Source: Parabacteroides sp. PF5-9 (GTDB lineage: Bacteria > Bacteroidota > Bacteroidia > Bacteroidales > Tannerellaceae). From it: DNA of 64,000 nt. Both the position numbers and the translations under genes were made by a program. Positions 22,749-53,557 of this stretch are shown in pieces. Location: contig NZ_JARXWG010000016.1 of the NCBI RefSeq assembly GCF_029893105.1, forward strand, positions 1 through 64,000, given 5' to 3'. The stretch's first letter is position 1. Every line of letters starts with the position of its first letter. The notes below the pieces were generated by a model, which did not search any database, was not told the origin of the DNA, and saw only the letters and a program-made list of their open reading frames with translations.

Positions 22749-24239
22749 TTACCACACATACGTTCCTACCGCTCCCGGATTAAGTCGGATATTCGCATAC
22801 TGTCCTTTATACTGGATTCTGAACCCTTGTGTATTAAAGGACGTATTGGCTACCACCAATACCGTTTTGCCTTCCGGTGTTTTGTAAGCCACATTCGGTA
22901 GTACATCCATATTATTAAAAGTAGCCACACGAGTGACCTCTCTGCGTTCCTCATCAGTTGTTAATGCCACGGTCATGTCACCAGCATTGGTCGAACCGAT
23001 GCGTACAGAGCCCGGACGGATAAACTTAGAAGCATGTGCGATCACATAGTAAGCCAGATTATTGGTCACCTTATCCCCATCAATGGTCACAGCCCCCTGG
23101 CACATCGAACAACCTCCATCATCCGTATGCGGATCATTCAGCGGATCGGCTGCAAAGTTCCAAAGGATCACGTTGCGGCTCCAGTTGCGGGTCACGTCGA
23201 TAATCATACGTTTCACTTGCGCTGCAATAGCGATATTCGGACTTCCCGGACGTTCGGTGATCATCTGTTCAGTGAAATAAAGATGTTTATCCGGAAAAGC
23301 GTTATGAACAACAGTCATGGCACTCATATCACCTCCGTAGTGGTGAAAGCCTGAACCATCGACATAGGGATTCACTTCAGGATCATTCAAAATGGCTAAT
23401 GCATAATCCGGTCTGTCTAAGTTGTGGTCAAACAAAACGATTTTTGTTTTCAGGTTTGCTTTAGCCAATTGTGGACCTAAATATTTTTTAATGAATTCGC
23501 CCTGTTCCTGTGCCGACATGCGCATACTCGGGGTATTGTTGGCATTCAACGGTTCATTCTGAATGGTGATCGCATCAATTTCAATCCCTTCCGCTTTCAT
23601 GGCCTGAATATATTTGATAAAATAACGGGCATACACCTCATAATATTCCGGTTTCAATCCGCCGGCTTTCACCTTATCGTTGGTTTTCATCCACGTTGGG
23701 GGCGACCAGGGAGAAGCCAGAATCTGAATATCCGGATTGATAGACAAAATCTCTTTCATCACCGGGATAACATCCTTTTTGTCCTGTGCCAGATCAAATT
23801 TATTTAGGTTAACATCTGTCTCTCCTGCTTTAAGGTCGTTGTAAGAGAATACAAAACTATTCAGGTCGGAGGCTCCGATAGTCAGACGAATATAACTGAC
23901 TCCGATGTGATTACCTTTGGTTGAGAATAGATCCTGTAAAAGAGCAGTTCGGGCAGCTGGGGTCATCAACATCATCAACTCCGCACTTCCACCAGTCAGA
24001 GCATATCCGAAACCATCGACACTTTGCATAGCATGTTGTTCGTCAATAACAATCGTGGAACCGGTTCTTCGACCTTGTGGTGTACTGGAAAAAGGAATTT
24101 TTTCCGTTTGTTGTTGGAATAGAACCGAACGGTCAGGTTCTGTAACCCAGGCTTCAATCTCAAAAGATGGGGTTTGTTGTGCCCATCCGGCGCTTATAAA
24201 GCCACTCAGCAATAAAGCCGCCATAAGTTTTTTTCGCAT
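22749..24239 (-). CDS. secreted glycoside hydrolase family 30 (glucosylceramidase/beta-glucanase type)
   Basis: This 496-aa protein has a signal peptide (MRKKLMAALLLSGFISAGWA). The (beta/alpha)8 domain shows VDGFGYALTGGSAE near residues 74-87, SPWSPPTWMKTN near 177-188, the acid/base Glu229 in ITIQNEPLN and the nucleophile Glu324 in YFTEQMITE. A C-terminal beta-sandwich follows. The pattern fits GH30 subfamily 3, whose characterised Bacteroides members cleave beta-1,6-glucan, but subfamily and substrate are inferred. No SusC/SusD pair is adjacent. The 5' side is the divergent spacer holding repeat array 1. Confidence 0.85.
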   Translation of the reverse strand: MRKKLMAALLLSGFISAGWAQQTPSFEIEAWVTEPDRSVLFQQQTEKIPFSSTPQGRRTGSTIVIDEQHAMQSVDGFGYALTGGSAELMMLMTPAARTALLQDLFSTKGNHIGVSYIRLTIGASDLNSFVFSYNDLKAGETDVNLNKFDLAQDKKDVIPVMKEILSINPDIQILASPWSPPTWMKTNDKVKAGGLKPEYYEVYARYFIKYIQAMKAEGIEIDAITIQNEPLNANNTPSMRMSAQEQGEFIKKYLGPQLAKANLKTKIVLFDHNLDRPDYALAILNDPEVNPYVDGSGFHHYGGDMSAMTVVHNAFPDKHLYFTEQMITERPGSPNIAIAAQVKRMIIDVTRNWSRNVILWNFAADPLNDPHTDDGGCSMCQGAVTIDGDKVTNNLAYYVIAHASKFIRPGSVRIGSTNAGDMTVALTTDEERREVTRVATFNNMDVLPNVAYKTPEGKTVLVVANTSFNTQGFRIQYKGQYANIRLNPGAVGTYVW

Positions 24240-24466
24240 GATAATTTAGTGATTAGGTTATTTTAATAAAAAAGTAAATTCACAAATAATGGGTTAATTA
24301 TGATAAATAACGCTTGTACGAGTTTTTTTCCTGATCGAAAACAGCGCAATTAAGGAATTATTTTTCAAATAATAGACATCGTTTAACACAATATAGGAAG
24401 AAAAAATCTTCTCATGCGAAGGTTTTTCTGTTTCCTCGAAGGGAAAAAACAGGACAGCCAGGGACA

Positions 24467-24585
24467 TTTTTCTGTTAGAGGTACGTCTAAAATAATTTAG
24501 AGGTAGGTGTAAACAAATTTAGAGGTAGGTGTAAATCGATTTAGAGGTACCTCTAAACAATTTTAGACGTACCTCTAACAAAAAA
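24467..24585. repeat. 22-bp palindromic repeat array 1 (five units)
   Basis: Five units start at 24475, 24497, 24519, 24541 and 24563, each exactly 22 bp apart. The fourth is the perfect palindrome TTTAGAGGTACCTCTAAA plus a 4-nt spacer. Units 2 and 3 share the variant TTTAGAGGTAGGTGTAAA. The array is bounded by TTTTTCTGTTAGAGGTAC on the left and CCTCTAACAAAAAA on the right, which are inverted copies of each other. It lies in the 426-bp spacer between the divergent GH30 and MutS-like genes. The rest of that spacer is AT-rich with no reading frame. Confidence 0.9.
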
Positions 24586-24652
24586 GTGTCGCAAACGGTT
24601 TTGTAAATGGTTTTGCATAAAAAAAGAATATCTTCAGATGGTTCTATTTTTA

Positions 24653-24665: not shown

Positions 24666-26465
24666 ATGGAGAAAGTGCGTGGTTATTATTTGCAGCAAGT
24701 TCAAGAATATACTATTCAATTGAATGGATTAAAAAGACGTATTCACTTGTTGGGAAGTGTGCGTTTGGTGCTTGTTTTGTTGGCATTGATTTCGGTTTGG
24801 TTTGTACGGAATGCTGATTGGCAGCTTATTACAGGGGTGTTGATCCTATATCTGATCCCGTTTGTGGTGTTCATGATTTATCATAATAAACTGGCTGTTA
24901 AGAAGGAGTATGTTAATGCACTTATCCGGTTAAACGAGAATGAGTTAAGTGGTTTGGATTATGATTTTAGTGCTTTTGACGGAGCTCCGGAAAAGAGTTC
25001 TTCTGCACATTCATATAGTTTGGATTTGGATCTTTTTGGAGACCATTCCTTGTTTCAATCGGTCAATCGAACAGTGACTCCTTTAGGAAGAGAGTTGTTG
25101 GTCGAGTGGTTTCTTTCTCCGTTGACGAATAAAAAAGAGATTCTCCGGCGGCAACAGGCGATTCGTGAACTGAGTACCTCTTATATTCATTTACGGCAGG
25201 ATTTCTATGTACAGGGATGTTCGCAGCAAAGTCGTAAGAATGATGCCGATGTATTATATACGTTGTCGGCAGGCAAATTTCAGTTTATAAACAGTACACT
25301 TTGGAAGATCTTGACTTGGATTATACCAATCGGATGGACGTTGGTCATCTTGGGGATGATAGTAGGAATTGTTCCGGAAGGGTTGTTTGGCCTTTATTTT
25401 CTGATTAGTTTTTTGATAGCCTATCTTCCAGCCAAGAAAGTGACCGTTTTGTATAATTCGGTCGATAAGATGCACAAGATTTTTTCGGTTTATTCGGATC
25501 TGATGGTGCGTATTGAAGGTGATTTTTTTCAGGCGGAAGAGTTGGCTGAAATCAGTCGCCGACTAACAGGGAAAAACAATCATACGGCATCACAGGCGAT
25601 AAAAAAACTATCCCAATATATCGGAGGATTAGATCAGCGGTTCAGTGCGATGGGGCTTATATTGAATATTTTGTATATGCGGGATACCCGTCATGCGATG
25701 TGTCTGGAGCGATGGAAAGAGGCTTATGCTTCAGAGATTGAAGGATGGTTTAATGCGTTGGCGCATTTTGATGCATTAAGTTCATTAGCCGGTTTTGCCT
25801 TTAATCATCCTGACGCTGTTTTTCCGGAGATCACCGATTCCTATTTTAAGATGGAAGGAAAGGCTTTGGGGCATCCCTTATTGGATCGTAAAGCGTGTGT
25901 GAAGAATGATATACAGATTCATAAAAGTCCTTGGTTCTTGATTATTACCGGTGCCAATATGGCCGGAAAGAGTACCTATTTACGAACGGTTGGTGTTAAT
26001 TTCTTGTTGGCGTGTATGGGGGCACCGGTATGTGCCGAATCGTTAACTGTATACCCTGCTCATTTAGTGACCAGTCTTAGAACATCAGACTCATTGGCCA
26101 GTAACGAATCCTATTTTTTTGCAGAACTGAAACGGCTTAAAATGATCATTGATCGTTTGAAAGCTGGCGAGGAACTGTTTATCATTCTTGATGAGATCCT
26201 GAAAGGGACGAATTCGATAGATAAACAAAAAGGATCGATCGCATTAATGAAGCAGTTGGTGGCCTATAAAACCTGTGGAATTATAGCGACTCATGATTTG
26301 GTGTTAGGCACATTGGAAGAGGAGTTTCCCGAGCAAATTAAGAACTACAGATTTGAAGCAGATATTACGAATGATGAATTATCATTCTCCTATTTGCTTC
26401 GTGAAGGTGTGGCGCAGAATATGAATGCTTATTTCCTGATGAAAAAGATGGGCATAACGGTCTGA
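24666..26465 (+). CDS. membrane-anchored MutS-like ATPase
   Basis: This 599-aa protein has two N-terminal membrane helices (about residues 28-46 and 51-72) and a second hydrophobic pair (about 213-255). The C-terminal half is a MutS-type ABC ATPase: Walker A GANMAGKSTYLRTVG near 428-442, the signature region SLRTSDSLASNESYFFAELK, Walker B LFIILDEILKGTNS and the switch His in IATHDL. It lacks the MutS mismatch-binding domain I and the MutS2 Smr domain, so a role in mismatch repair is unlikely. Similar membrane MutS-related proteins occur across Bacteroidetes without known function. Confidence 0.8.
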   Translation: MEKVRGYYLQQVQEYTIQLNGLKRRIHLLGSVRLVLVLLALISVWFVRNADWQLITGVLILYLIPFVVFMIYHNKLAVKKEYVNALIRLNENELSGLDYDFSAFDGAPEKSSSAHSYSLDLDLFGDHSLFQSVNRTVTPLGRELLVEWFLSPLTNKKEILRRQQAIRELSTSYIHLRQDFYVQGCSQQSRKNDADVLYTLSAGKFQFINSTLWKILTWIIPIGWTLVILGMIVGIVPEGLFGLYFLISFLIAYLPAKKVTVLYNSVDKMHKIFSVYSDLMVRIEGDFFQAEELAEISRRLTGKNNHTASQAIKKLSQYIGGLDQRFSAMGLILNILYMRDTRHAMCLERWKEAYASEIEGWFNALAHFDALSSLAGFAFNHPDAVFPEITDSYFKMEGKALGHPLLDRKACVKNDIQIHKSPWFLIITGANMAGKSTYLRTVGVNFLLACMGAPVCAESLTVYPAHLVTSLRTSDSLASNESYFFAELKRLKMIIDRLKAGEELFIILDEILKGTNSIDKQKGSIALMKQLVAYKTCGIIATHDLVLGTLEEEFPEQIKNYRFEADITNDELSFSYLLREGVAQNMNAYFLMKKMGITV

Positions 26466-35041: not shown

Positions 35042-35138
35042 TTTTTCTGTTAGAGGTACCTCTAAAATGTTTTAGACGTACCTCTAAACGGATTTAGACG
35101 TACCTCTAAATTATTTTAGACGTACCTCTAACAAAAAA
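35042..35138. repeat. 22-bp palindromic repeat array 2 (four units)
   Basis: Four units start at 35050, 35072, 35094 and 35116, exactly 22 bp apart. The first is a perfect GAGGTACCTC palindrome; the other three read TTTAGACGTACCTCTAA, with one base changed in the left half. The boundaries TTTTTCTGTTAGAGGTAC and CCTCTAACAAAAAA are the same as in array 1, and the total is 97 bp against 119 bp, exactly one unit shorter. Bases outside these ends are unrelated between the two loci. It lies in the 476-bp spacer between divergent genes; the rest of the spacer shows no reading frame. Confidence 0.9.
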
Positions 35139-53463: not shown

Positions 53464-53557
53464 GATTCGTTTGACAATTGTGGAATGATCGTTTTATAAC
53501 TATGGAATGATCATTTGACAATTGTCGAACGATTATTTCACAATTGTCGAATGAATT
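53464..53557. repeat. 22-bp palindromic repeat array 3 (four units, different sequence)
   Basis: Units start at 53470, 53492, 53514 and 53536, exactly 22 bp apart. Units 1, 3 and 4 centre on the palindrome ACAATTGT, with the pattern TCGTTyGACAATTGTCrAACGA in full form; unit 2 has TATAACTATGGAATGATCA. The left and right ends (AACACAGATTCGTTTGACAA and the reverse complement AACAAAAATTCATTCGACAA) are similar, so the array as a whole is an imperfect inverted repeat. It lies in the 647-bp spacer upstream of the S24 repressor. The rest of that spacer (53212-53463) has no gene. Confidence 0.8.

Follow-up and report, generated by a model that had tools for sequence, protein, structure and literature searches.

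Dispersed arrays of palindromes phased at 22 bp in a Parabacteroides genome: a candidate set of chromosome-wide protein-binding nodes

The usual account of dispersed palindromic repeats treats them as mobile remnants. The sites of matS/MatP, SlmA, and similar systems are single conserved binding sites for one known protein, distributed with spacing on the scale of the chromosome, and CRISPR arrays are composed of direct repeats with unique spacers of 25-40 nt and accompanying cas genes. In Escherichia coli, the intergenic palindromic mosaics known as REP/BIME elements number about 100 or more per genome, have recorded roles in protein binding (as in the BIMEs that bind gyrase and IHF), and serve as targets of insertion sequences. 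IS1397 and ISKpn1 are REP-recognizing insertion sequences of the IS3 type that target palindromic intergenic repeats (PMC1525189). Within the Bacteroidales, the BrickBuilt element of Porphyromonas gingivalis is a minisatellite MITE of 19 copies, with 1 to 22.8 repeats of 23 nt, an IS5-type terminal inverted repeat (TIR) beginning GAGACC, and a leader and tail reaching about 300 bp (PMC4596501). For the arrays described here, from Parabacteroides sp. PF5-9, the nearest known kind is REP/BIME with its insertion sequences (PMC1525189), and the nearest element in taxonomy and period is BrickBuilt (PMC4596501). No description of such arrays was found in the open-access literature searched.

One array of the family designated F1 lies in the window, the whole 64,000-nucleotide stretch of this genome that was analyzed (contig NZ_JARXWG010000016.1, positions 1 to 64,000). 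Its core (24474 to 24579, no strand assigned) consists of five 18-bp units starting at 24474, 24496, 24518, 24540, and 24562; with the 4 nt after each unit, the period is 22 bp. A first-pass annotation of the sequence had already reported five units at exact 22-bp steps, its starts (24475 and onward) denoting the same units counted from TTAG; the lag-22 identity of the array is 0.78-0.80, whereas 40 Markov shuffles of the whole window did not exceed 0.53. Unit 4 alone is perfectly palindromic (18/18); the match is 14/18 in units 1 and 5 and 12/18 in units 2 and 3. The latter two share the variant TTTAGAGGTAGGTGTAAA, as had been seen, and are near duplicates; the unit duplication proposed from this resemblance, here taken as recent, agrees with the presence of five units here versus four in 70 of 76 aligned F1 arrays. 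The flanking T/A runs extend the core to 24463 to 24590 (GACATTTTTCT... to ...AAAAAAGTGTC, no strand assigned) and, with the outer half-sites, complete the TIR that the annotation had recognized, GTTAGAGGTAC...GTACCTCTAAC, with arms at 24463-24521 and 24532-24590 that are 83% complementary. The right side is of the end type called A (CACTTTTTTG joined to TTAGAGG). The spacer is indeed divergent, the array lying upstream of both neighbors: on the left a minus-strand gene (22749 to 24239) whose translation reads as a GH30-like glucosylceramidase, and on the right a plus-strand gene (24666 to 26465) that reads as a MutS-like ATPase. Two further arrays in the window, also without assigned strand, are an F1 array of 4 units at 35049 to 35132, with the B end (CTGTTTTTTG joined to TTAGAGG) at its right, and an F2 array at 53464 to 53555, of 4 x 22 bp of TTTGACAATTGTCGAATGATCA units, unrelated to F1 in sequence and alike in architecture.

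A whole-genome search with the unit TTTAGAGGTACCTCTAAA at up to 3 mismatches returned abundant further copies (425 matches per strand, versus 6 for the reversed control), ruling out an isolated accident. The resulting catalog comprises 142 arrays on 2.95 Mb (contigs C1-C22) in the three families F1, F2, and F3, each of about 30 to 110 copies. In a lag scan of 464 kb of the genome, an unbiased sample of 20 stretches plus the window in which F3 came to light, lag 22 gave 15 matches, one of them a different simple repeat, versus 0-2 for each other lag from 10 to 40. Because all F1-F3 arrays of these unbiased stretches were already cataloged, the catalog is close to complete. The sequences show that arrays normally consist of four imperfect palindromes in exact 22-bp phase and that at least three unrelated families coexist in this genome, with no evident sequence in common among F1, F2, and F3 despite their like four-by-22 design. 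The canonical four-unit F1 array spans 84 bp, from GTTAGAGG to CCTCTAAC, with three units in 4 of the aligned arrays and five in 2; four units are present in 30/30 F2 arrays (92 bp) and in 16/17 F3 arrays (94 bp).

Comparison with the described systems brings out both likenesses and differences. As with REP/BIME, the arrays are high-copy, palindromic, and intergenic, with no gene overlap in any case checked, and are likewise targets of insertion sequences, their protein binding being putative. Unlike REP/BIME, they are strictly 22-bp phased, normally of four units, and AT-rich in their cores, belong to several unrelated families per genome, and are evenly spaced, the E. coli REP clusters having a coefficient of variation (CV) of about 1. 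The GTAG-type REP hairpin is lacking: units such as TTTAGAGGTACCTCTAAA and TTTGACAATTGTCGAA do not form a 20-40-bp hairpin with a GTAG or CGTC tag, and although CGTC is present in the F3 unit, it stands there in 22-bp tandem phase. REP propagation driven by the REP-associated tyrosine transposase (RAYT; Y1_Tnp, PF01797) was rejected, as this domain is absent from the genome by a search that did detect it in 5 of 14 controls, the E. coli genome among them. With BrickBuilt, the arrays share a Bacteroidales host, short-period repeats (23 nt in BrickBuilt) within an intergenic element that has a distinct leader and tail, and long predicted stem-loops. The repeat number, variable in BrickBuilt, is nearly constant at four here and the period is 22; the copies per family are more than the 19 of BrickBuilt, and an IS5-like TIR (GAGACC...GGTCTC) was not seen in the aligned F1 flanks. 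The features that define REP/BIME and BrickBuilt are thus wanting, and the arrays are therefore called a new version of dispersed palindromic repeat, one that could also represent a new chromosome-organizing system. A CRISPR array is ruled out by the 4-nt spacers, the palindromic tandem units, and the dispersal over the genome.

The internal organization of F1 arrays is directional. Their two ends, A (CACTTTTYTG) and B (CTGTTTTYTG), are paired as A-B in 47 arrays, A-A in 2, and B-B in 1, the remainder having an unclassified end. T runs outside the arrays fall at -5, -27, -49, and -71, keeping the 22-bp phase, and conserved flanks reach about 50-115 bp in many F1 copies; F2 flanks are unconserved beyond -7. 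The half-sites are AGAGG, AGACG, ACACC, or ACACG. With one or two exceptions, all of 313 F1 units contain at least one AGAGG half, the outermost halves are nearly always AGAGG, and the layout from A to B is commonly P-P, x-P, x-P, c-P. In its own orientation F3 follows a like logic, keeping one half constant at every step and having a palindrome that is perfect or nearly so at one of its ends. The original characterization of the locus as a dimer-site-like array with exact 22-bp phasing is upheld as a description of its apparent design. Other repeats occur as well. One dispersed repeat, with AACGTGAGTTCGATATAAG / TTTCCGAAGGCCAAATCCC, lies near arrays (L032, L101, L116, L163, L181), and its end resembles the reported TIR of P. 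gingivalis MITE239/ISPg3 (PMC4596501); a separate tandem repeat of AAGAAACACCC-type units with period 11/22 (L123:5992-6130) is not a palindromic array.

The placement of the arrays relative to genes bears on a regulatory explanation. Available intergenic length is 27% divergent, 62% tandem, and 12% convergent; divergent gaps hold 24/53 F1 arrays, an enrichment, 4/18 F2 arrays, which are not enriched, and 8/20 F3 arrays. Of 138 gene sides at F1 arrays, 94 have the gene pointing away from the array, at a median distance of about 190 bp, so neighboring promoters and terminators are apparently undisturbed. A reading of the arrays as operators, through which a transcription factor, local or global, would control the neighboring divergent promoters, would suit the palindromic, dimer-like sites and the F1 enrichment, but is very improbable in view of the F2 proportion, the many tandem and convergent positions, the even 20-kb spacing, and the occurrence of unrelated families in equivalent roles. 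The first-pass annotation had raised both an operator array, which as a local operator is hard to reconcile with about 110 copies in all gene arrangements, and an origin-like iteron set, from which the spread of copies over the whole chromosome leads away.

Every array can also be folded into one long hairpin, with z of about -9 for F1 and F2 and down to -16 in relatives (overall -7 to -16), a potential compatible with a structural role in DNA or RNA. These strong predicted folds, and the location of one array side downstream of a gene in many cases, are what a transcript-level device would offer, with the array acting as one long RNA hairpin in termination, stabilization, or processing. Tandem palindromes, however, fold by construction. 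Pairing across the array is missing for the spacers of F1, which makes recognition of single units the better-supported alternative to selection of a single long hairpin, and the whole-array hairpin was rejected as a selected trait. The upstream position of arrays on the 94 of 138 gene sides noted above speaks against such a device, which also leaves the even spacing across families unexplained. The only Rfam matches were eukaryotic miRNA-type hairpins scoring far under the gathering thresholds, so that a structured RNA family was rejected for want of a real match. A transcript-level role of this kind is thus improbable.

The 120 neighbor gaps among the 142 arrays have a minimum of 5505 bp, and none is below 5 kb, versus 29 expected from random placement and 19.6 from a 3-kb grid of candidate gaps. 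With a gap CV of 0.72 versus 0.97 expected, spacing in this genome is exclusion, not a clock. Gaps between neighbors of different families (n = 75) have a minimum of 5653 bp; exclusion holds across families too, so recombination between identical copies does not explain it. In the relative G018, a contiguous 420 kb contains 22 arrays of three families at a mean spacing of 19.7 kb, with gaps of 11.0-32.2 kb and a CV of 0.27, the lowest of 20,000 simulations being not below 0.45; as a control, REP clusters along 300 kb of E. coli K-12 gave a CV of 0.95-1.18. Array density varies between genomes, and two other relatives, G019 (6 arrays per 200 kb) and G025 (3 per 240 kb, G025:C2), are too sparse for a spacing test. 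By these distances the arrays lie about 20 kb apart and exclude one another across families. Such non-random spacing at chromosome scale is also found in matS-like site sets, which the arrays resemble as distributed sites with putative protein binding, and from which they differ in being arrays, not single sites, and in falling into several unrelated families.

The main rival explanation holds that the arrays are a selfish, REP- or MITE-like dispersed element with no host function, copied by transposition or conversion machinery and kept apart by insertion interference resembling target immunity. High copy number, intergenic location, TIRs, the lack of coding capacity, and genus-specific families all accord with this account, as do positions that are not significantly conserved between genera and a closest analogue, BrickBuilt, that is itself a MITE (PMC4596501). 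It is nonetheless doubtful, as three unrelated families exclude each other (minimum 5.65 kb over the 75 cross-family gaps) while immunity normally needs shared ends; moreover, RAYT was not found in the genome, target duplication is not evident, and unit number is strict. Inverted-repeat ends are present, and both of the insertion sequence ends that adjoin arrays differ from the array ends. A simple mobile element, as a reading of the short one suggested at first, finds no support in arrays without a transposase inside, in a genome without a REP transposase, and in spacing far from random. A phage- or plasmid-borne array was rejected as well, the two viral-contig matches being chance matches inside coding sequence.

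Arrays of like design with other sequences, in several families per genome, were found in random stretches of the relatives G018, G025, G031, and G019; smaller samples of G011, G021, and G042 gave no arrays. G019 agrees in both coordinates and sequence with Parabacteroides sp. PH5-46, which places the host family as Tannerellaceae. F1-type sequence is present in G019 and G008 and absent from the other 58 relatives searched, and the G008 arrays beside insertion sequence ends (L307-L309) have period 21, with GC-rich GGCCGGC units, instead of 22. Related genera have their own sequences within the same array design. Sharing of array positions between genera was not significant (odds ratio 1.6-2.3, p 0.17-0.36, with a partial own-genome sample). 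An argR-like gene adjoins arrays of three sequence families in three species of two genera (own L063, G025 L212, G008 L210), which is suggestive, yet overall positional conservation is not significant.

Another type of evidence comes from insertion sequences beside the arrays, whose junctions in this genome were read at contig ends. Many of these ends abut arrays, assembly breaking there because repeated insertion sequence copies sit at the arrays, and arrays can mark hidden insertion sequences in draft genomes. All eight copies of the IS-Y end (..CAGGACAGG, followed at the junction by ACA) abut F1 arrays, at a distance that is always 17 nt when taken modulo 22 (17 nt, 39 nt, or a junction within unit 1), and all nine copies of the IS-X end (..AGGATAAGTCA) abut F2 arrays, 8/9 of them at 20-22 nt; location of all or most copies at the repeat is also the mark of REP-recognizing insertion sequences. 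There is no cross-pairing of either with the other array family, the array is always faced by the same IS end, and no F3 array with an insertion sequence was seen. Insertion is specific for family, phase, and end, and each of the two related insertion sequences has a cognate array family of its own. In PH5-46, an IS-Y relative possesses both ends together with an integrase core (rve_3), and another array type lies outside its left end. The rve core and the targeting of palindromic intergenic repeats are shared with IS1397 and ISKpn1, in contrast to which insertion is beside or within a phased array, in fixed phase and with one end facing it, and two related elements have different cognate families. 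In relatives, further copies of the IS-end motif are followed by a species-specific array in G018 (9/10), G031 (1/1), G025 (2/3), and G008 (3/3), and solo IS ends stand at arrays with no transposase nearby in G018, G025, and G031; full copies in G015 are not at arrays. That IS ends adjoin arrays in several species might suggest that the arrays are sub-terminal repeats carried along as part of the insertion sequences, but this is exceedingly improbable: copies are identical on the IS side of the junction and diverse on the array side, the insertion sequence lies within the array at the C21 start, C3 end, and C9 start, only 17 of 142 or more arrays have such an end, and the PH5-46 element has both its ends with the array outside.

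Several further observations concern these insertion sequences. A supposed third one, "IS-Z" (10 copies, with two junctions read, both resembling the outer F1-type flank), was rejected, its end likely being the other end of IS-Y. The solo IS-end motif GTGACAACCNATTTCAGGATAAGTCA, often preceded by TGTCAACTTTTATAGTAAACAGTGAC, occurs in one related genus (L209, L211, L212, L293-L306), and at the C38 start (L150) a tandemly duplicated IS-Y end (CAACCTATTTCAGGACAGGACA twice) adjoins an F1 array. In G049, of another family (L195, L217), period-8/16 repeats (GTTTAGGTTTGTAAGT...) come after an IS-end-like motif and may be a further type of insertion sequence landing site. In G022 (L207), a period-22 array directly follows a remnant IS3-type end that is itself abutted by an ISAs1-like transposase gene with its end, which suggests repeated use of arrays by different insertion sequence families.

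The explanation preferred here, to which a probability of about one-half is given, is that the arrays are nodes of a chromosome-wide intergenic set for multi-site protein binding, concerned with topology or the nucleoid. Each array would be bound by a putative multimeric DNA-binding protein. A unit would present one nearly invariant half-site (AGAGG) and one looser half, and with this pairing in nearly every unit, dimers would line one helix face side by side, the flanking phased T/A tracts bending or wrapping the DNA. The families would be interchangeable versions doing one job, as their common design and mutual avoidance suggest, and would be recognized by common or paralogous factors. Their even spacing would be maintained by a task of the nodes at chromosome scale, for example the anchoring of the nucleoid or of loops, or the control of supercoiling. 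Insertion sequences would exploit the nodes as safe, recognizable targets. Against the node explanation, positions are not significantly common to genera, the spacing in this genome is no clock, array density varies, and exclusion could stem from insertion interference. Cross-family exclusion and strict unit number favor function, turnover of position and sequence favors mobility, and both may be true together.

That copies of unrelated sequence avoid each other, at near-regular 20-kb intervals in G018, is unexpected of a simple mobile remnant. If the arrays are selfish, they would demonstrate cross-family insertion exclusion. IS-Y and IS-X, each with its own array family, provide a natural example of how target specificity has changed among IS3-type transposases. 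A broader and more tentative proposal is that Tannerellaceae chromosomes may be partitioned by a previously unrecognized system of interchangeable, sequence-diverse nodes, each of four palindromes phased at 22 bp and placed about every 20 kb, in which node sequences are replaced from genus to genus but spacing rule and design stay, implying a protein partner that reads structure or co-evolves with its sites. If such nodes do organize the chromosome, they would provide a sequence-defined handle on loop and supercoil domains in gut Bacteroidales.
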